Source of the DNA: Streptomyces sp. NBC_01669
Lineage (GTDB): Bacteria > Actinomycetota > Actinomycetes > Streptomycetales > Streptomycetaceae
Assembly (NCBI RefSeq): GCF_026339735.1
Contig: NZ_JAPEQG010000001.1
Coordinates: 8,679,001-8,743,000 of the forward strand
DNA: 64,000 nt
Direction of reading: 5' to 3'
Shown here: positions 45,157-54,743 of the stretch, one piece after another
How positions within the stretch are numbered: the first letter of the stretch is position 1
How the letters are laid out: each line of letters starts with the position of its first letter
The notes under the pieces: generated by a model
The model's database searches: none
What the model saw: only the letters and a program-made list of their open reading frames with translations
What the model was told of the DNA's origin: nothing
Made by a program: the position numbers and the translations under genes

Positions 45157-47250
45157 TCATGGCTCGTGTCCGGACTGCATATGCCGGGTCCGGGCGATGA
45201 GCAGGGCTACGTCGTCGTGGTCGTCCCGGTGGCGCAGCGCGCCCAGCAGGAGGTCGCAGGTCTCTTCCAGAGGACGGCGGGGGTTGCTGAGCAGGTCGGT
45301 GAGTGCCTGGAGGCGGGCATCGATGTCCTGGTCGCGGGTCTCGACCAGCCCGTCGGTGTAGAGGACCAGTTCGTCGCTGATACCCAGATGGAACTCGATC
45401 GTCTCGAAGGGAACGCCGCCGACACCCAGAGGGGCTCCGGTGGGCAGGTCGAGCAATTCCGGCACCTGACCCGGCCGGGTCAGCACGGGAGGCAGATGGC
45501 CGGCAGTGGCCATGCGGCAACGCAGGAGGTGCGGGTCGTAGACGGCGAAGACGCAGGTGGCCATGGCGCCGTCCAGACCCACGGCGATGTCGTCGAGCTG
45601 AGTGAGGACAGCATCGGGTTCCAGCCCGAGTGCGGCGAGGGTGCGAGCGGCGATGCGCAGCTGGCCCATGGTCGCGGCCGCGTTGATGCCGCTGCCCATC
45701 ACATCGCCGACCACCAGCGCGGTCTGCTCACCGGGCAGCGGGATGACGTCGAACCAGTCCCCGCCGGCCTCGTCGGCCGCCGCAGCGGGCTGGTACCGGT
45801 AGGCGATCTCCAGCCCGGGCCTGGAGGCGGGCTCGGAGGGCAGCAGGTGGCGCTGCAGGGTGAGCACGGCGCGGCGTTGACGCTGGTACCAGCGGGCGTT
45901 GTCGATGGATACCGCCGCGCGGGCGGCGAGTTCGACAGCGAGGACTTGGTCGTCGTGGTCGAAGGGCTGCTGATTGCGGGCGCGTTTGAGGTCCAGCACG
46001 CCGAGGACCTCACCGCGGGCGATCAGCGGCACCGCGAGGTAGGAGTGCAGGCCCGCCTCCTTCAGCAGGGTGGCGGCCTCCGCGTCGCGGGCGATGCGGA
46101 CAAGGTCGCTCTCCCGCACGCGGGACACCAGGACGGGGCGGGCGGATCTCGCGCTCTGGGTGACCAGCCGGGTGGCGTCGTAACTCGCCAGCTCGCCGAC
46201 CGGGTCGGCGGCCCGGATTGCCGGCGTGGGGTAGGCGGTCTTCACCGCGAGCGCACGGAACGACGCCGTGTCGCCGTCGTCGTGGGGTTGCGTGCCCCCC
46301 AGTACGGAGTCGAGGACGTCGACGGCGACTATGTCGGCGAACTCCGGAACGACGATGTCGGCCAGCTCCCGGGCGGTGACCTCGAGGTCGAAGGAGGTGC
46401 CGATCCGCGCGGACGCGTCGGCGATCAAGGCCAGGCGCCGCCGGGTCCGGACGGCGGCGGCAGCTGCCTGCAGCTGCTCGGTGACGTCCACGACCGAGGT
46501 GGCCAGTCCGATCACCTGCCCGGACGCGTCCTCCAGCCGGTAGAACGACACACGCCAGGCGTGCTCCGTGTCGGGGTCGGCCGCGGTGCGGCCGGTGGTG
46601 AACTGGTTCAGCCGAGGTACGCCGTCCGCAAGCACGCGCCGCATCGCCGATTCGGTGGCGTCGGCGTCCAGGAACGACAGCACCTCGCCGACGCGTCGGC
46701 CCAGGTGCTGCTCGGCGGGCAGGCCGTTGATGCGCTCCAGCGCCGGGTTGACCAGCACGTACCGCAGGTCGGTGTCCATGACCGCAAGGCCCATCGGGGA
46801 TTGCGACACCAATCGCATGGACAAGGCCAGATCACGCTCCACCCGTTGCAGCGTGGAGTGGTCGGAAGCAATGCCCAGTGCGTAGAGGTGGCCGTGCTCG
46901 TCCTCGAGACGCATGTTGCGGAATTCGGCCAGTCGGGTGCTGCCGTCCTTGTGGCGCACCGGGAATACCCCGGCCCAGGCCCCGCAGCCCGCCATCACCT
47001 GCGCGAACAGGGACATCACCTGCTCCCGATGCTGTTCCTCGATGAGCAGGTAGATCGCGCTGCGGCCCAGTGCCTCCCCGGCGGTGTAGCCGAACAGTTC
47101 CTCGGCCTGCGGGCTCCACAGAGCGATCCGGCCCTCGGCGTTCAGGACCACCGCGGCCACACCCAGCACATCGAGCAGCCCGCCCGGAGCGGCCGAAGGA
47201 TCAGCCGCCCCCGGCGCAGCGTCGCCCAGCAGGCCGTCGGCCTCAGTCAC
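45157..47250 (-). CDS. Multi-sensor (PAS-PAS-GAF) SpoIIE-type phosphatase
   Basis: A 697-residue cytoplasmic signalling protein. Domains: PAS (about 22-140, starts VLNAEGRIALWSPQAEELFGY), PAS (145-265, GLAVMDTDLRYVLVNPALERINGLP), GAF (285-430, LHSYLAVPLIARGEVLGVLDL), PP2C/SpoIIE (445-690). Metal-binding residues in GGDWFDVI, VGDVMGSGI, YTDGLVE and DDVALLI are present. It probably senses small ligands or redox via PAS/GAF and dephosphorylates an anti-anti-sigma factor. No adjacent anti-sigma gene. The start is GTG behind GAAGGAGGG. Confidence 0.92.
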   Translation of the reverse strand: MTEADGLLGDAAPGAADPSAAPGGLLDVLGVAAVVLNAEGRIALWSPQAEELFGYTAGEALGRSAIYLLIEEQHREQVMSLFAQVMAGCGAWAGVFPVRHKDGSTRLAEFRNMRLEDEHGHLYALGIASDHSTLQRVERDLALSMRLVSQSPMGLAVMDTDLRYVLVNPALERINGLPAEQHLGRRVGEVLSFLDADATESAMRRVLADGVPRLNQFTTGRTAADPDTEHAWRVSFYRLEDASGQVIGLATSVVDVTEQLQAAAAAVRTRRRLALIADASARIGTSFDLEVTARELADIVVPEFADIVAVDVLDSVLGGTQPHDDGDTASFRALAVKTAYPTPAIRAADPVGELASYDATRLVTQSARSARPVLVSRVRESDLVRIARDAEAATLLKEAGLHSYLAVPLIARGEVLGVLDLKRARNQQPFDHDDQVLAVELAARAAVSIDNARWYQRQRRAVLTLQRHLLPSEPASRPGLEIAYRYQPAAAADEAGGDWFDVIPLPGEQTALVVGDVMGSGINAAATMGQLRIAARTLAALGLEPDAVLTQLDDIAVGLDGAMATCVFAVYDPHLLRCRMATAGHLPPVLTRPGQVPELLDLPTGAPLGVGGVPFETIEFHLGISDELVLYTDGLVETRDQDIDARLQALTDLLSNPRRPLEETCDLLLGALRHRDDHDDVALLIARTRHMQSGHEP

Positions 47251-48553: not shown

Positions 48554-49765
48554 CTATGCTCTTACCCGGCTGGCCCGGGATTCCAGGTAGCGTTGCTCGG
48601 CGATGCTGGCGGTGGACTTCGCGGCGCGCCGGTAGTGCTCGTACGCCCCGGCCGTGTCGCCGGTCTTTTCCAGCAGATGCGCCCGTACGGACAGCAGCCG
48701 GTGGTGCCCGGCCATCCGCTCGTCCCTGTCCAATGTGGACAGCAGGGCCAGCCCGGCCGGCGGGCCCTCGGTCTCGGCGAGCGCGATTGCCCGGTTGAGG
48801 GTGACCATCGGGTTGGGCGCGATCCGTTCCAGGATCAGGTAAAGGGTGTGCACCTGCGGCCAGTTGGTCTCCTCGGTCGTGGCCGCGTCGGCGTGCGTGG
48901 CGGCGATGGCGGCCTGCAGCTGGTAAGGCCCCAGCGCCGGGCCGGCCAGCGACGCCTTGACCAGCTCGGTGCCCTCGTCGATCAGCGTGCGATCCCACTT
49001 GGTACGGTCCTGCTCGTCCAGCGGCACCAGGTCGCCCGCCGCGGTCGTACGTGCCGGCCGGCGGGCGTGGGTCAGCAGCATCAGCGCGAGCAGCCCGGTC
49101 ACCTCGCCGTCCTCGGGCAGCTGCGTGTGCACCATCCTGGCCAGCCGGATCGCCTCGTGCGCGAGGTCGGCGCGGTGCAGCTCACTGCCCGAGGAGGCGG
49201 TGTAGCCCTCGTTGAAGATCAGATAGAGCACGTGCAGGACGACCCGTAGCCGCTCCTCGCGCTCCGCGCCGTCCGGCAGACTGAACGAGCTGCCGGCGGC
49301 CTTGATGCGCTGCTTGGCCCGGCTGATCCTGGCCGCCATCGTGGCCTCCGGCACCAGGAATGCGCGGGCGATCTCGGCAGTGGTCAGGCCGCCGACCGCC
49401 CGCAGCGTCAGGGCGGTCTGGGAGGCCGCGGTCAGCGTCGGATGGCAGCACAGGAGCAGCAGGACGAGCGTGTCGTCGGTGTCCGGTACGTCCTCGGGCA
49501 CCACCTCGGTGGCCGTCGCCGACTCCCGCTCACGGCGCGCGTGGTCACTGCGCATCTGGTCGATGAGCCGCCGGGACGCGACAGTCACCAGCCAGCCGCG
49601 CGGGTTGTTCGGCACTCCCTCGGCCGGCCACTGCACGGTGGCGGCGAGGACGGCCTCCTGTACGGCGTCCTCGCACCCTTCGAACTGGCCGTGTCGACGT
49701 ACCAATGCGCCAAGGACCTGCGGCGTGAGCTCACGCAGCAGGTCCTCGATGGGTCGTGCTGTCAT
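48554..49765 (-). CDS. ECF42-type RNA polymerase sigma factor
   Basis: A 403-residue sigma factor much longer than ordinary ECFs. Region 2 (ALVRRHGQFEGCEDAVQEAVLAA...PRGWLVTVASRRLIDQMRS) and region 4 (GGLTTAEIARAFLVPEATMAARISRAKQRIK) occupy the first 165 residues. The remaining 240 residues form the helical DUF6596/TPR-like extension characteristic of ECF42, containing LYLIFNEGY and GPYQLQAAIAATHADA. No anti-sigma gene is nearby; ECF42 factors are instead linked to DGPF/YCII proteins, as here. Its ATG overlaps the DGPF stop (ATGA), so both form one operon read from a mirrored promoter. Confidence 0.93.
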   Translation of the reverse strand: MTARPIEDLLRELTPQVLGALVRRHGQFEGCEDAVQEAVLAATVQWPAEGVPNNPRGWLVTVASRRLIDQMRSDHARRERESATATEVVPEDVPDTDDTLVLLLLCCHPTLTAASQTALTLRAVGGLTTAEIARAFLVPEATMAARISRAKQRIKAAGSSFSLPDGAEREERLRVVLHVLYLIFNEGYTASSGSELHRADLAHEAIRLARMVHTQLPEDGEVTGLLALMLLTHARRPARTTAAGDLVPLDEQDRTKWDRTLIDEGTELVKASLAGPALGPYQLQAAIAATHADAATTEETNWPQVHTLYLILERIAPNPMVTLNRAIALAETEGPPAGLALLSTLDRDERMAGHHRLLSVRAHLLEKTGDTAGAYEHYRRAAKSTASIAEQRYLESRASRVRA

Positions 49766-50133
49766 GCCTCCAATTGTCCGTCAGCGAACATCACCTGCCG
49801 CACCTCGACCCCGAGACCCTCGATCGTCGTGTCCGGGATCTGCGATGCCAGTTCGATCGCCCGCTCCTTGTTCTCGCAGTCGATCAGGTAGAAGCCGCCC
49901 AGATACTCCTTGGACTCCAGGAAAGGTCCGTCGGTCACCACCGGCTGGCCGTTGCGTACGGACACCACAGCGGCCTGTGACGGATCGACCAGCGCCTGCG
50001 TGGTGATCAGCTCGCCGGACTTCTTCAGCGCCTCGATGAACCTGCCGTGGCCGTTGCCGATCGCCGCCTTCTCCTCGTCGGTCAGGGCGTCCAGCACGGC
50101 CGGGTTGATATGCAGGCTGATCAGGAACTTCAT
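49762..50133 (-). CDS. DGPF/YCII-domain protein, ECF42 partner
   Basis: A 123-residue ferredoxin-like-fold protein: KFLISLHINPAVL start, then VTDGPFLESKEYLGGFYLIDCENKERAIELA with the DGPF signature, and a final VEVRQVMFADG strand. DGPF proteins are the conserved partners and targets of ECF42 sigma factors; function in signalling is unknown. GAGGAG lies 7 bases before the ATG. First gene of the operon with the sigma factor; stop and start overlap. Its promoter mirrors that of the divergent MFS gene. Confidence 0.92.
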   Translation of the reverse strand: MKFLISLHINPAVLDALTDEEKAAIGNGHGRFIEALKKSGELITTQALVDPSQAAVVSVRNGQPVVTDGPFLESKEYLGGFYLIDCENKERAIELASQIPDTTIEGLGVEVRQVMFADGQLEA

Positions 50134-50176
50134 CTTGTACTCCTCGTGGTTTGCGGGCCCCGGCTGGGCCCTTCGA

Positions 50177-50212
50177 CCGGTTGGTCGGAGCCGTCGCCGT
50201 CGTCTTGACATC
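50177..50212 (-). promoter_or_regulatory. ECF42-type promoter of the DGPF-sigma operon
   Basis: Minus-strand sequence GATGTCAAGA...CGAC.GCTCCGACCAACCGG: -35 TGTCAA (50210-50205) and -10 CGAC (50187-50184), spacer 17. It is 30/36 identical to the plus-strand promoter of the MFS gene, with the same spacing. ECF42 promoters reported for Streptomyces have a TGTCGA-like -35 and a CGA/TC -10, which fits. Confidence 0.7.
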
Positions 50213-50323
50213 CCCCGCCCGAACGTTCGCATGAGTTTTTCGCCGTCGCATCGCCCGGACCGCGAGGTCGTCATTTCTGGTGACGCCCCACCGTGGCAGA
50301 CGCGAGAGATTTCCTTCCGTACC

Positions 50324-50359
50324 GATGTCAAGAAGCTCTCGACCGCTCCGACCAACCGG
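50324..50359 (+). promoter_or_regulatory. ECF42-type promoter of the MFS transporter gene
   Basis: Plus-strand mirror copy of the sigma-operon promoter: -35 TGTCAA (50326-50331), -10 CGAC (50349-50352), spacer 17, then the shared CAACCGG. The expected start of transcription is about 30 nt before the MFS ATG. Overlapping it, CTCTCGAC (50336-50343) and GTCGAGAG (50366-50373) form an 8-bp dyad. Confidence 0.68.
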
Positions 50360-50390
50360 CGAAACGTCGAGAGAACAGGGAGTTTCGGAT

Positions 50391-51884
50391 ATGCGAGTCA
50401 ACCGGGCGTGGCTGGGACTGGTCGTCCTCATGCTGCCGACATTGCTCGTCGCGATGGACATGACGGCGTTGCTCCTCGCGCTCCCACGGCTGAGCGCCGA
50501 CCTGGGTGCCACCAACGTCGAGCAGCTGTGGATCAGTGACAGCTACGGATTCATGGTGGCCGGCATGGTCATCACGATGGGTACGCTCGGCGACCGGATC
50601 GGCCGTCGACGGCTGCTGATGATCGGCGGAGCGGCGTTCGCGGTGCTGTCGGTCGTGGCAGCCTTCGCGGCCGACCCGCTGACACTGATCGTCGCGCGTG
50701 CGCTGCTGGGCGTCGCCGGCGCGACCCTGGCGCCGTCCACACTTGCCTTGATCACCAACATGTTCCGCGACGAACGGCAGCGCGGGCAGGCCATCGCGAT
50801 CTGGGCGACCTGCCAGTTCACCGGCGGCGCGCTCGGACCCGTACTCGCCGGATTCCTGCTCCAGCACTTCTGGTGGGGATCGGTGTTCCTGGTTGCTGTA
50901 CCGGCGATGGCGTTGTTGCTGCTCACCGGGCCGGTCCTACTGCCGGAGTACCGCAGCGACCGGGCCAGCCGGCTGGACCTGGCCAGCGTCGGTCTTTCGC
51001 TCGTGGCAGTACTTTTGATGGTCTACGGCATCAAGCAGTTGACCGTCGAGAGCGAGCCGGCCGGTTCGGCGGTGGCCCTCGTCGTCGGCGCAGCCATCGG
51101 ATTCCTGTTCGTACGCCGACAACTGCGGCTGGAGACGCCGCTGCTTGACCTGCGACTGCTCCGCAACCGCCCGTTCACGGCCGTACTCGTCGCGCTGGTC
51201 TTCGCCGGCATCGCCATGGCCGGTACGGGCCTGCTGGTGACCCAGTACCTGCAGAGCGTGCTGGGCTACTCGCCGTTCGCGTCGGCGGTGCTGTTCGCTC
51301 CCATGGGCCTGGGCGTGGCGGTCGGCACCATGGCCGCGCCGGCGCTGGGCCGGCGGATGAAGCAGACGACCGCGATCGCCGGCGGGCTGGTGGGGTCGGC
51401 GCTGGGCAGCCTGCTGCTGGTCGGCGTCGACGGTGCGAGCGCCCTGCCGCTGGTGATGATCGGCATCGCCGTACTGGCGCTGGGCACCGGCCCGCTGTTC
51501 GCGCTGGGCACCGGGCTGGTCGTCGGGTCCGTACCGCCGGAGCGCGCCGGCTCGGCGGCGTCGATGTCGGAGACCGGCAACTACTTCGGCGGTTCTCTCG
51601 GCTTCGCGCTGCTCGGTGTGGTGGCCGCAGTGGTCTACCGCAGCCGGATGGACGGCACATCCGACTCGCTGGCCGGCGCGGTCGCCGCCACCGAGCGCCT
51701 GCCCGCCGGCCAGGGCGCGGAACTGCTGCACACCGCGCGGGAGGCGTTCACCACCAGCCTGCACGTGACGGGCGTCGTCGCCGCGGTCATCTTTGCCGGG
51801 CTGGCCGTACTGATCCTGACCATGCGCCCGGCAACCCGGACCACCCCGGCCGCACTCCCCGCCTACGAGGCGACTCGCTCATAG
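50391..51884 (+). CDS. MFS multidrug transporter, DHA2 (14-TM) type
   Basis: A 497-residue membrane protein with about 14 hydrophobic segments. Motif A GTLGDRIGRRRLL after TM2, and the DHA2 motif C-like ARALLGVAGATLAPSTLALI in TM5. It resembles SmvA/LfrA-type exporters of cationic or amphiphilic drugs. The ATG at 50391 has a GGGAG site; it lies 32 nt after the predicted ECF42-type promoter. Being divergent from the DGPF-sigma operon with a mirrored promoter, it is probably a direct target of that sigma factor. Confidence 0.92.
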   Translation: MRVNRAWLGLVVLMLPTLLVAMDMTALLLALPRLSADLGATNVEQLWISDSYGFMVAGMVITMGTLGDRIGRRRLLMIGGAAFAVLSVVAAFAADPLTLIVARALLGVAGATLAPSTLALITNMFRDERQRGQAIAIWATCQFTGGALGPVLAGFLLQHFWWGSVFLVAVPAMALLLLTGPVLLPEYRSDRASRLDLASVGLSLVAVLLMVYGIKQLTVESEPAGSAVALVVGAAIGFLFVRRQLRLETPLLDLRLLRNRPFTAVLVALVFAGIAMAGTGLLVTQYLQSVLGYSPFASAVLFAPMGLGVAVGTMAAPALGRRMKQTTAIAGGLVGSALGSLLLVGVDGASALPLVMIGIAVLALGTGPLFALGTGLVVGSVPPERAGSAASMSETGNYFGGSLGFALLGVVAAVVYRSRMDGTSDSLAGAVAATERLPAGQGAELLHTAREAFTTSLHVTGVVAAVIFAGLAVLILTMRPATRTTPAALPAYEATRS

Positions 51885-52096: not shown

Positions 52097-52610
52097 GAGG
52101 GTCCTGGGGGCCTGCGTGCTCGGGATACGACCGTCCGTGATGTGCCGACATCGAATGCCCCTACGACATGGCGAGCGTATTGTCCATATATGTGCGACGT
52201 TCGGTTCGGCTGGTGCGACATGCCATCGCCGGCACCGGCAGGTCGTGGCCGACGTTCTTGCCATCCGGTACATCGGCAGGTGGCCTGGCGGGCCCGGCGC
52301 CGTCGGAGGGAGGGCGCAGAGGCTCGGCAGGCGATGCTGCTCGTCGGTGCGGAGCAGCTGGAACGGGTACAGGCCCCTGCGCAGCAGGTGAGTGGCCTTC
52401 CCCCAGCGGGAGACTGCCACTGCGCTGCTGTGCCGGGGATACCTGGACCGACCGGGCTCCTGGTACGCGGGGCAGTCCAGGCCGACGGGCGGGCCGGGGT
52501 CGGCCGGTCAAGGACCGCCGCCGGCCTCGGCATCAGAGCTGAAGCCGCCCGGAATCACTACGGGCGCGTGAGGGGACCCCGGCCCGGTGTCGCCGAGGGA
52601 GGGTGAGAGC
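52097..52610. other. Intergenic region upstream of the third phosphatase
   Basis: No gene seen. The first 60 bp (about 52067-52152 including the IstB end) are similar to 57194-57276 in a degenerate duplicate. AGGGAGGGTGAG just before 52611 is the ribosome site of the phosphatase gene. Confidence 0.45.
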
Positions 52611-54743
52611 GTGCGGGAGGCGGCGTTCACCCCCGCAGCGGGTTCAGGCCTGGAGTTGCTGGACCCCGCTCTGATCCGGGTCGTGCATGAGACCGGTGCG
52701 TCTGTGGGCGTGATGTACCTGCTGCCGTCGGGCGAGACGGTACTGCGGATGGCATTGCTGACGGGGGTTCCGCCGCAGATCGTCGCACCATGGGCACAGG
52801 TGGCGCTGACAGCCCCGATTCCGGTGGCCGAGGCCGTACGCGAGCGACGCGTGGTGTGGGTCGGTAGCCGTGAAGAGATGGCACGCCGCTACCCGAGGCC
52901 CGCGCTCGTGGTGCCCTACCACTTTGCGGCAGCCGCAGCCCCGATCACCACAGGCGACACCGATCGGGGCGGGCTGGTGCTGCTCTGGCCCGGTTCGCAT
53001 CCGCCGCAGCTGTCCGAGCACGAGCGTCATGCGATCGACGTCTTCTGCCGCCACACCGGGCTGCTCCTGCAGCGGGCCGCCGACAGCGACCACCCGGTGC
53101 TGCCCGGATCCGAGCCGCGGGTGCTGTCGGCGTACCGCTCCTACACTCCGTGTCCGGGCGAGGCAATGGCCGCGGTCGACTTTGCCGAGCGCTTGCCCGG
53201 GGGCTGCTGCGCGCTGGACCTGGAAGGCCGGATCTCCTTCATCACCACTGCCGCTGCAGAACTGGTCGGAGCGGACATCCCCGACCTGCTGGGCGCGCTC
53301 CTCTCGGAAGCGCTGCCCTGGCTGGATGACCCAGTCTTCGAAGACTGTTACCGATCTGCGGTGGTCAGCCGCCAAATCACGTCCTTCACCGCCCGGCGCC
53401 CGCCGGATCGCTGGTTGTCCTTCCAGCTCCATCCGGATGCCTCCGGTATCAGTGTCCGTATCACTCCCGCCCCCACGGGCCATGCCGAGGACACTCCAGA
53501 GGCGCAGTGCATCACGTCGCCAGCTACGCCAAGCCGGGCAGGGGAGGCCTACCACCTGCTGCACCTGGCCGCCACGCTCACCGAAGCCGTCGGCGTGCAG
53601 GACGTGGTCGACCGGGTCCCCCGCCAGATCATGCCCGCCTTCGGTATCCAGGCCCTCGCCCTGATGACCGCGGAGGAAGGCCGCTTGCGGATCGTCGGCC
53701 ACCGCGGCTACACCACCGAACTCATGGACCGCTTCGACGCCGCCCCCCTGACCTCACACACCCCCGCCGCGCGCGTCCTGGCCACCGGCGTTCCTGCCTT
53801 CTTCGCCACCTTCGCGGACCTGAAACGCGCCTACCCCCCCGCCGTCCTCCAGGACGACATGGCTGCCTGGGCGTTCCTGCCCCTCACTGCCTCCGGCCGC
53901 ACCATCGGCTCGATGGTGCTCGCCTACGACCGGCCCCACCCCTTCGCCACAGAAGAACGCGCCATCCTCACCTCGATCGCCGGGCTGATCGCCCAAGCCC
54001 TGGAACGCGCCCGCCTCTACGACGCCCAATACCAACTCGCCCACAGCCTGCAGGCCGCGCTGCTGCCCCACGCCCTGCCCCAGATCCCCGGCCTGGAGCT
54101 GGCCGCCCGCTATCTCCCGACCACCCACGGCGTGGACATCGGCGGCGACTTCTACGACCTCATCCGCCTCGACGAAACGAACGCCGCCGCCGCCATCGGC
54201 GACGTCCAAGGCCACAACGTCAATGCCGCCGCCCTCATGGGCCAGGTCCGAACCGCAGTCCACGCCACTGCCGGCGTATCCCCCGGCGAAGTCCTCGCCC
54301 ACACCAACCACCTGCTCATCGACCTCGACCCGGGCCTCTTCACCAGCTGCCTCTACATCCACCTCGACCTGGCACACCACCGTGCCCGCCTGTCCACCGC
54401 CGGCCACCCTCCACCGCTCCTGCGTCACCCCGACGGATACACCGAAGTCCTCGACCTGCCGCCCGGTCTCGTGCTCGGCATCGATCCGACCGCCGACTAC
54501 ACGACCACCGAGATCGCCTTGCCTCCCGGCACCGTGCTTGCTCTCTATACCGACGGACTCGTCGAAGCCCCCGGCATGGACATCGAGGACGCCATCGCCG
54601 GCCTCGCCGAGCATCTCGCACGAGCCCCGGGCGAGACGGCGGAGACCCTCGCCGACAACCTCGTCCACTACGCCACGCAGGGCGCACCCCGCAACGACGA
54701 CATCGCCCTGCTCGTCATCAACGTGCAACGGACCGGCGGATAA
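52611..54743 (+). CDS. GAF/PAS SpoIIE-type phosphatase
   Basis: A 710-residue sensor phosphatase. A GAF-like region (about 10-165, ELLDPALIRVVHETGASVGVMYLL), a PAS (185-290, CCALDLEGRISFITTAAAELVGADIPDLLG), a second GAF (310-465, IQALALMTAEEGRLRIVGHRGYT), then PP2C/SpoIIE (475-705) with GGDFYDLI, IGDVQGHNV, YTDGLVE and DDIALLVI. It is the third SpoIIE-type phosphatase in the window and probably acts on anti-anti-sigma factors. GTG at 52611 has a perfect AGGGAGGGTGAG site; an upstream GTG at 52587 is weaker. A degenerate duplicate of its 5' region occurs at 57.3 kb. Confidence 0.92.
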   Translation: MREAAFTPAAGSGLELLDPALIRVVHETGASVGVMYLLPSGETVLRMALLTGVPPQIVAPWAQVALTAPIPVAEAVRERRVVWVGSREEMARRYPRPALVVPYHFAAAAAPITTGDTDRGGLVLLWPGSHPPQLSEHERHAIDVFCRHTGLLLQRAADSDHPVLPGSEPRVLSAYRSYTPCPGEAMAAVDFAERLPGGCCALDLEGRISFITTAAAELVGADIPDLLGALLSEALPWLDDPVFEDCYRSAVVSRQITSFTARRPPDRWLSFQLHPDASGISVRITPAPTGHAEDTPEAQCITSPATPSRAGEAYHLLHLAATLTEAVGVQDVVDRVPRQIMPAFGIQALALMTAEEGRLRIVGHRGYTTELMDRFDAAPLTSHTPAARVLATGVPAFFATFADLKRAYPPAVLQDDMAAWAFLPLTASGRTIGSMVLAYDRPHPFATEERAILTSIAGLIAQALERARLYDAQYQLAHSLQAALLPHALPQIPGLELAARYLPTTHGVDIGGDFYDLIRLDETNAAAAIGDVQGHNVNAAALMGQVRTAVHATAGVSPGEVLAHTNHLLIDLDPGLFTSCLYIHLDLAHHRARLSTAGHPPPLLRHPDGYTEVLDLPPGLVLGIDPTADYTTTEIALPPGTVLALYTDGLVEAPGMDIEDAIAGLAEHLARAPGETAETLADNLVHYATQGAPRNDDIALLVINVQRTGG

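Follow-up and report, generated by a model that had tools for sequence, protein, structure and literature searches.

Does the sigma factor encoded beside a divergent transporter gene drive that gene as well as its own operon? The question is raised by a locus of Streptomyces sp. NBC_01669, studied here in a window of 64,000 nucleotides (the whole stretch of DNA that was analysed), where an operon for a DGPF protein and an ECF42-type sigma factor lies back to back with an MFS gene. Two promoter-like arms face outwards from the region between them. We consider it likely, with a probability of roughly 0.86, that both arms are promoters of the adjacent ECF42 sigma factor, which would thereby co-activate the DGPF-sigma operon and the exporter. 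The features at issue are:

48554–49765, minus strand: ECF42-type sigma factor, 403 aa, with A145 in the recognition helix (Pfam Sigma70_r2, Sigma70_r4_2 and DUF6596)
49762–50133, minus strand: YCII-related DGPF protein, 123 aa (Pfam YCII, PF03795, 63.6 bits; DGPF motif in the translation)
50155–50171, minus strand: G+C hairpin GGGCCC-AGCCG-GGGCCC, located in the DGPF 5′ leader some 5 nt downstream of the presumed start
50177–50212, minus strand: putative promoter arm of the DGPF-sigma operon (−35 TGTCAA at 50205–50210, −10 CGAC at 50184–50187)
50324–50359, plus strand: putative promoter arm of the exporter gene (−35 TGTCAA at 50326–50331, −10 CGAC at 50349–50352)
50391–51884, plus strand: predicted MFS exporter, 497 aa (Pfam MFS_1, PF07690, 168.7 bits, cut-off 33.4)

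Genes and paired arms of the locus

The stop codon of the DGPF gene overlaps the start of the sigma gene (ATGA). In the sigma factor both sigma2 (PF04542) and sigma4 (PF08281) score above their Pfam cut-offs, with nothing between them at an E-value of 0.001. About 240 residues follow sigma4 as a C-terminal extension that matches DUF6596 with 131 bits and is helical in an AlphaFold model (mean pLDDT 84, from a 27-sequence alignment), in which the recognition helix spans residues 140–156. The 50 structure matches listed for the model are mostly TPR chains at Z 12.3–14.2, a level that helical models reach by common arrangement, and no TPR model of Pfam matches the sigma factor at an E-value of 0.001. 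ECF42 factors are described in the consulted parts of PMC8999054 and PMC9023288 as sigma2 and sigma4 followed by a TPR-type C-terminal extension, with a YCII/DGPF neighbour; according to them, activity requires the extension, to which a partner may give the signal. The window sigma factor fits the architecture given there. The TGTC-type −35 and CG(A/T)C −10 elements of the group are also present upstream of the DGPF gene, with a deviation at base 5 (A for G). No ECF42 model is among the 25 NCBIfam matches. The host genome (10.8 Mb, 5 contigs) encodes five ECF42-type sigma factors at E < 1e-80, and the next match has an E-value of 8e-9. PA1349 (1s7i) is the nearest solved structure of the DGPF protein.

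Translation of the MFS gene likely starts at ATG 50391, with AGGGAG upstream, rather than at GTG 50280, the start given in the mechanical ORF list. The best curated models for the protein are QepA, LfrA, SmvA and QacA, yet it stays well below the naming cut-off of each (in NCBIfam 386 bits for qepA against 1075, 350 for LfrA against 825 and 213 for qac_MFS_AB against 900). It likewise reaches 177 bits with the DHA2 model TIGR00711, under the cut-off of 230.2. The best PDB match is the antiseptic resistance protein 7y58 (QacA-type, 216 bits), and EfpA and EmrB structures are also among the nearest relatives. We take these three kinds of structure to belong to the DHA2 family, and by such nearest relatives only the exporter appears DHA2-like. 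PADLOC returned no anti-phage system match for the sigma factor or the MFS protein. By eye, CGAAAC and GTTTCG in the MFS leader (50360–50388) form an inverted repeat that encloses the AGGGAG ribosome-binding site. The locus is bordered on each side by a SpoIIE-type phosphatase that carries PAS and GAF domains, at 45157–47250 on the minus strand and 52587–54743 on the plus strand.

The sequence-only reading had reported a 36-bp sequence repeated in inverted orientation upstream of the operon and of the MFS gene, and this repeat is present. The minus-strand arm (50177–50212) reads GATGTCAAGACGACGGCGACGGCTCCGACCAACCGG and the plus-strand arm (50324–50359) GATGTCAAGAAGCTCTCGACCGCTCCGACCAACCGG; 30 of the 36 positions are identical, the spacing TGTCAA-17-CGAC is equal, and the stretch GCTCCGACCAACCGG is shared without differences. 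The 257-nt intergenic region was shuffled 1000 times with its dinucleotide composition preserved; with the arms kept non-overlapping, the best 36-nt inverted match had a mean of 20.1 and a maximum of 24. None of the shuffles reached 30, which rules out a chance origin of the repeat. A variant that permitted overlap had a maximum of 31; self-overlapping palindromes score every match double in that variant, and it was hence replaced. By their sequence, the arms are two head-to-head ECF42-type promoters (TGTCAA-N17-CGAC).

Arms, exporter and downstream block in relatives

Genome contigs were scanned for relatives of the sigma factor, and the best 80 of at least 592 relatives were kept as loci. 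Among these best 80, we found 17 close orthologues (identity of at least 81%), which represent eight named genera plus one MAG. One of them, L071, was left out; it lacks a DGPF match, and its sigma match directly adjoins a C-terminal fragment of an MFS gene. Within the genus of the window, 15 of 392 genomes carry a sigma factor of this clade, the window's genome included. G103 and L063 have identical coordinates and sites and were counted once, for a clade total of 30 loci including the window. The clade forms one group in the sigma tree (SH-aLRT 100).

Across these 30 loci the exporter-side arm goes with the exporter: all 17 loci that have the MFS gene carry the arm, and none of the 11 that lack the gene does. 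The MFS gene of the 17 loci is divergent and forms a single long match without stops, with 75–96% identity to the window protein in the 16 relatives. Their exporter-side −35 reads TGTCAAG in 16 loci and TGTAAAG in one (L197). The MFS gene is broken in two clade loci; in L063 the arm is intact, and in L227, which retains an MFS remnant, the −10 of the arm is no longer CGAC. On the sigma tree, MFS presence switches at least six times within the clade (L063 scored as MFS-positive; L227 and L235 are absent from the tree). The DGPF-side arm is conserved in the 28 aligned clade loci, window included; among all clade loci, −35 position 1 varies in five DGPF arms (CGTCAAG in L067, L070, L227 and L235; GGTCAAG in L065). 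Since the gap between the −35 ends ranges from 27 to 157 nt across clade loci, the arms are kept and the intervening sequence is not.

These comparisons bear on the possibility that the exporter arm is a non-functional inverted duplicate of the DGPF promoter, kept similar by gene conversion. Such a duplicate would account for the slight likeness of arms within one locus, which agree at 9.9 of 16 variable positions compared with 9.2 between loci (permutation p 0.007) and leave room for mild gene conversion or co-selection. It sits poorly with the spacers, which diverge between the arms while −35 and −10 persist; with the absence of the arm wherever the MFS gene is missing (0/11) and the lost CGAC of L227 beside its MFS remnant; and with L197, where a −35 change common to both arms is accompanied by differing spacers. 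We regard a mere duplicate as very unlikely.

It had also been proposed that the conserved block downstream of −10 is longer than a promoter needs and may bind another regulator. The relatives lend this no support. In 40 non-clade ECF42 promoters the stretch GGCTCCGAC is, together with TGTC, the best conserved, in sites that were picked by TGTC and GCTCCG(A/T)C and are thereby biased toward conservation of GGCTCCGAC. This conservation outside the clade indicates that most of the 15-nt block is the −10 region of the group. The CAACCGG extension is a loose, clade-level feature, with positions 28–33 kept at 54–94% and its last G at the expected start position. A separate operator within the block is not supported, as GCTCCGAC recurs group-wide across ECF42 promoters and CAACCGG is only loosely conserved in relatives.

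Alternatively, a different DNA-binding protein, such as a repressor of the divergent pair, might use the arms as a whole as its operators, which would make their promoter likeness secondary. The two window arms agree fully in CAACCGG, and relatives retain it in part (54–94%), as an operator would predict, but GCTCCGAC with the 17-nt spacing also stands upstream of DGPF genes in ECF42 loci that lack CAACCGG. Moreover, neither arm is dyad-like by eye, and base 5 of the −35 tracks a residue of the sigma factor (see below). An operator pair thus seems very unlikely to us, and we retain the reading of the arms as ECF42 promoters.

In the DGPF leader, perfect stems of at least 5 bp occur at the place of the hairpin in 28 of 68 loci compared with about 3.7 in shuffles, and the letters differ between loci. 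This positioned stem is enriched over shuffles in the clade and in other ECF42 loci. The mean folding energy of DGPF leaders did not differ significantly from that of shuffles (mean z 0.02 in the clade and −0.27 elsewhere).

Residue 145 of the sigma factor and base 5 of the −35 element

Outside its own clade, most ECF42 factors examined carry Q where the window sigma factor has A145. We compared this residue with the promoters, starting from 95 loci (28 clade, 63 other and 4 host paralogues) in which 160 nt upstream of the DGPF start were scanned with base 5 left unused. Seven loci had no DGPF match, and of the other 88, 20 were dropped for lack of a clear site or for other spacing. The residue 145/base 5 pairs of the 68 loci are A-A (27), V-A (2), Q-G (29), R-C (8), K-C (1) and Q-C (1). 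The pairing rule A/V-A, Q-G and R/K-C is therefore obeyed in 67 of 68 loci, the exception being L088 with a doubtful site. For base 5, residue 145 has the highest raw mutual information of the 403 sigma columns, and it also leads by normalised mutual information among 390 low-gap columns. The rule also holds in 41 of 42 loci once the 26 other A145 clade members are taken out. Relatedness is ignored in these pairing statistics. The tree requires at least five changes of base 5 and at least nine of residue 145, and it places the R-C pairing of L117 apart from that of the L093 group.

The rule was derived from this first set and was then applied to a hold-out of 28 loci that an R-type query had retrieved across the phylum (246 genomes). 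Two of these loci were too short and 13 fell below the threshold, leaving 13 usable promoters, none of which has letters identical to those of the first set. Twelve of the 13 obey the rule (Q-G 10, R-C 2), and the remaining one goes with an unreadable residue. For A-A pairing, the hold-out consists solely of two clade members outside the first set, L227 and L235, which combine A145 with A at base 5.

The position of the residue agrees with a role in −35 recognition. T142, R146 and R149 share the spacing of sigmaE T169, R173 and R176 (numbers from PMC6713349), which places residue 145 at sigmaE S172 or SigW T171. According to the same source, as far as consulted, these two residues contact −35 base −34, in a numbering that belongs to GGAAC. 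Alignment to M. tuberculosis SigL gave the same register.

L197 (genome G115) changes on both sides at once. Both of its arms read TGTAAAG, with differing spacers, and its recognition helix is GTMAVRISRAKA, with PEGTMAVRISRAKA in place of PEATMAARISRAKQ. V145 alone does not account for the change at base 4, since L135, also with V145, retains TGTCAAG. The residue 145 rule, the co-occurrence of arm and MFS gene and the double change in L197 together suggest that this sigma factor very probably reads both arms. They support the earlier claim that the sigma factor drives both its own operon and the exporter.

The exporter arm could instead be an ECF promoter read by another sigma factor of the host, either an ECF42 paralogue or a further ECF. 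The genome does offer candidates, with five ECF42-type sigma factors and more distant sigma matches, and the arms share the group-wide GCTCCGAC. All four ECF42 paralogues of the window sigma factor, however, carry Q145. Their promoters are clear TGTCGA sites at L002, L003 and L005; the best site at L004 is weak and likewise reads TGTCGA. Liu is said to have given the ECF42 promoter consensus in 2018 as TGTCGA / CGA-TC. The four Q145 paralogues probably do not read the arms.

The distribution of the motif also argues against another sigma factor. The loose pattern TGTCAA-N15-19-CGAC gave 39 matches in the host genome compared with 52 for a reversed control; by itself this bare pattern is common and uninformative. 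Exact TGTCAAG-N13-CTCCGAC occurs in the host genome at the two arms and nowhere else. Across the genus (392 genomes) it has 26 matches, compared with 4 for the reversed pattern; 19 belong to arms of clade loci, where the motif thus clusters, and seven have no DGPF, sigma or MFS relative nearby. In 18 clade genomes 24 of 26 matches are arms, and the other two (G015 and G003) precede RibD_C-family genes. These counts understate the arms, because some clade arms are inexact (e.g. L059, L060, L067 and L197). Transcription of the exporter by another host sigma factor is, in our judgement, highly improbable.

The adjacent sigma factor as reader of both arms would imply the following circuit. Active sigma factor would recruit RNA polymerase to the minus-strand arm, switching on the DGPF-sigma operon in positive feedback, and to the plus-strand arm, switching on the exporter, and amplification and efflux would begin jointly. 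With A145 in place of Q, the −35 that is read would change from TGTCGA to TGTCAA, G giving way to A at base 5, and the circuit should be insulated from the four Q145 paralogues of the host. We infer sigma binding, transcription from the arms and this insulation from comparison of sequences. Several observations weigh against the circuit: the ECF42 loci without a clear promoter in the scan (20 of 88, and 13 of 28 in the hold-out), the intact arm of L063 beside a truncated MFS gene, the variable −35 position 1 of five clade DGPF arms, and the exporter of G291 described below. That the trigger is relieved by export is a guess.

A third host target was considered and rejected. The ECF42-like stretch TGTCAACGG..GCTCCGAC at G000:C3:6118679 (L030/L168; also in G001, L169) precedes what looks by eye like lepA. 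With up to three mismatches it was found in 10 of 295 genomes of the genus; six of the ten read TGTCCAC, and seven of the ten are without the clade sigma factor. As the stretch mostly has an altered −35 and occurs in genomes that lack the sigma factor, this site is probably not a target. In clade genomes without a linked MFS gene, no exact-motif site pointed to an unlinked one (motif sites only were considered).

Exporters at other loci and known ECF42 systems

Divergent arms are also found outside the clade. A scan at a score of at least 9 returned six loci, against a chance expectation of about 0.7 sites across the 88 loci. In five of them (L077, L096, L105, L117 and L127) the divergent arm agrees with the DGPF promoter at base 5; in L113 it differs, and this arm looks spurious. 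L117 (R145) has TGTCCG on both sides and a divergent MFS gene. Beyond the spacing covered by the scan, L115 (Q145) has TGTCGAA with an 18-nt spacer on both sides, again with a divergent MFS gene. The MFS proteins of L115 and L117 are 45% alike mutually and 28–31% alike to that of the window, and their best matches include LmrA, TcmA and the DHA2 model, all below cut-off. Other divergent genes are glyoxalase-like by eye in L077, where the sigma gene accompanies it, a weak DUF998 match in L105 and DUF6069 in L127. One exporter does not follow the rule. G291 (L198, site 3063 minus) encodes an MFS protein 58% identical to that of the window, with no sigma gene adjoining and TGTCGG-N17-CGAC 87 nt upstream of its likely ATG; the nearest ECF42 sigma factor, about 7.5 kb away, has R145, which predicts C.

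We think there is a good chance that a subgroup split off via a change of Q145 to A and runs a private head-to-head regulon, and that at least two MFS subfamilies were recruited to ECF42 loci with the −35 following residue 145; export may then recur as an output. At the window itself, a co-evolved two-promoter ECF42 circuit with the exporter as output is probably real.

Three ECF42 factors of Streptomyces venezuelae (Sven_0747, Sven_4377 and Sven_7131) share, as far as their available description goes, the architecture, the YCII/DGPF neighbour and a TGTC...CG(A/T)C promoter. The window differs from them in its −35 TGTCAA, with A145 for Q, and in the extra divergent promoter that would serve the MFS exporter. 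RpoE10 of S. meliloti is likewise an ECF42 factor with a YCII neighbour and TGTCGG...CGTC promoters; it activates glyoxalase-like and hypothetical genes and showed no self-activation, and the consulted part of the source (PMC6180224) mentions no transporter as a target. The earlier statement that ECF42 factors mainly target DGPF genes is therefore incomplete, as the targets of RpoE10 extend beyond DGPF (PMC6180224). ECF-10 of P. putida, also of ECF42, is described in PMC8999054 as affecting sensitivity to antibiotics and oxidative stress, with no direct exporter promoters mentioned in the part consulted. Its phenotype would fit an efflux output, of which it is no proof.

According to PMC8103513, Todor et al. 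2020 drew a relation between sigma residues and −10/−35 bases from autoregulated ECFs. The general idea is thus known for ECFs; here a single residue, 145, in ECF42 would tie one sigma factor to two arms. Among the matches listed in the freely licensed PMC literature there was no paper on an ECF42-driven MFS exporter, and we treat the novelty as provisional. ECF42 factors are widespread and their output is poorly known, and a hard-wired exporter in an actinobacterial subgroup would give a testable efflux and tolerance phenotype in a two-promoter regulon small enough for dissection. The residue 145/base 5 rule would predict cross-talk among ECF42 paralogues in multi-copy genomes and suggests ready-made orthogonal sigma-promoter pairs. 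If exporters were indeed recruited in this way, a one-residue specificity code may read out export as a recurrent output of the functionally obscure ECF42 group.

Two minor observations concern the motif. In the Micromonospora loci L089, L091, L097 and L102 the helix MSQRIRRAK goes with G at base 6 of the −35 (GTAGG or GTCGG), with only L091 and L097 above the promoter threshold; a second sigma residue may set this base. TGTCAAG-type sites, two exact and two with one mismatch, lie upstream of RibD_C/dihydrofolate-reductase-like genes in one Actinoplanes and three Nonomuraea genomes in which the clade sigma factor is present (L164, 3196 minus; L165, 3073 minus; L166, 3067 minus; L167, 2986 plus). 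These genes are possible further regulon members. The host genome has 13 RibD_C genes, and at L173 a gene of the same family lies behind a TGTCGA site.
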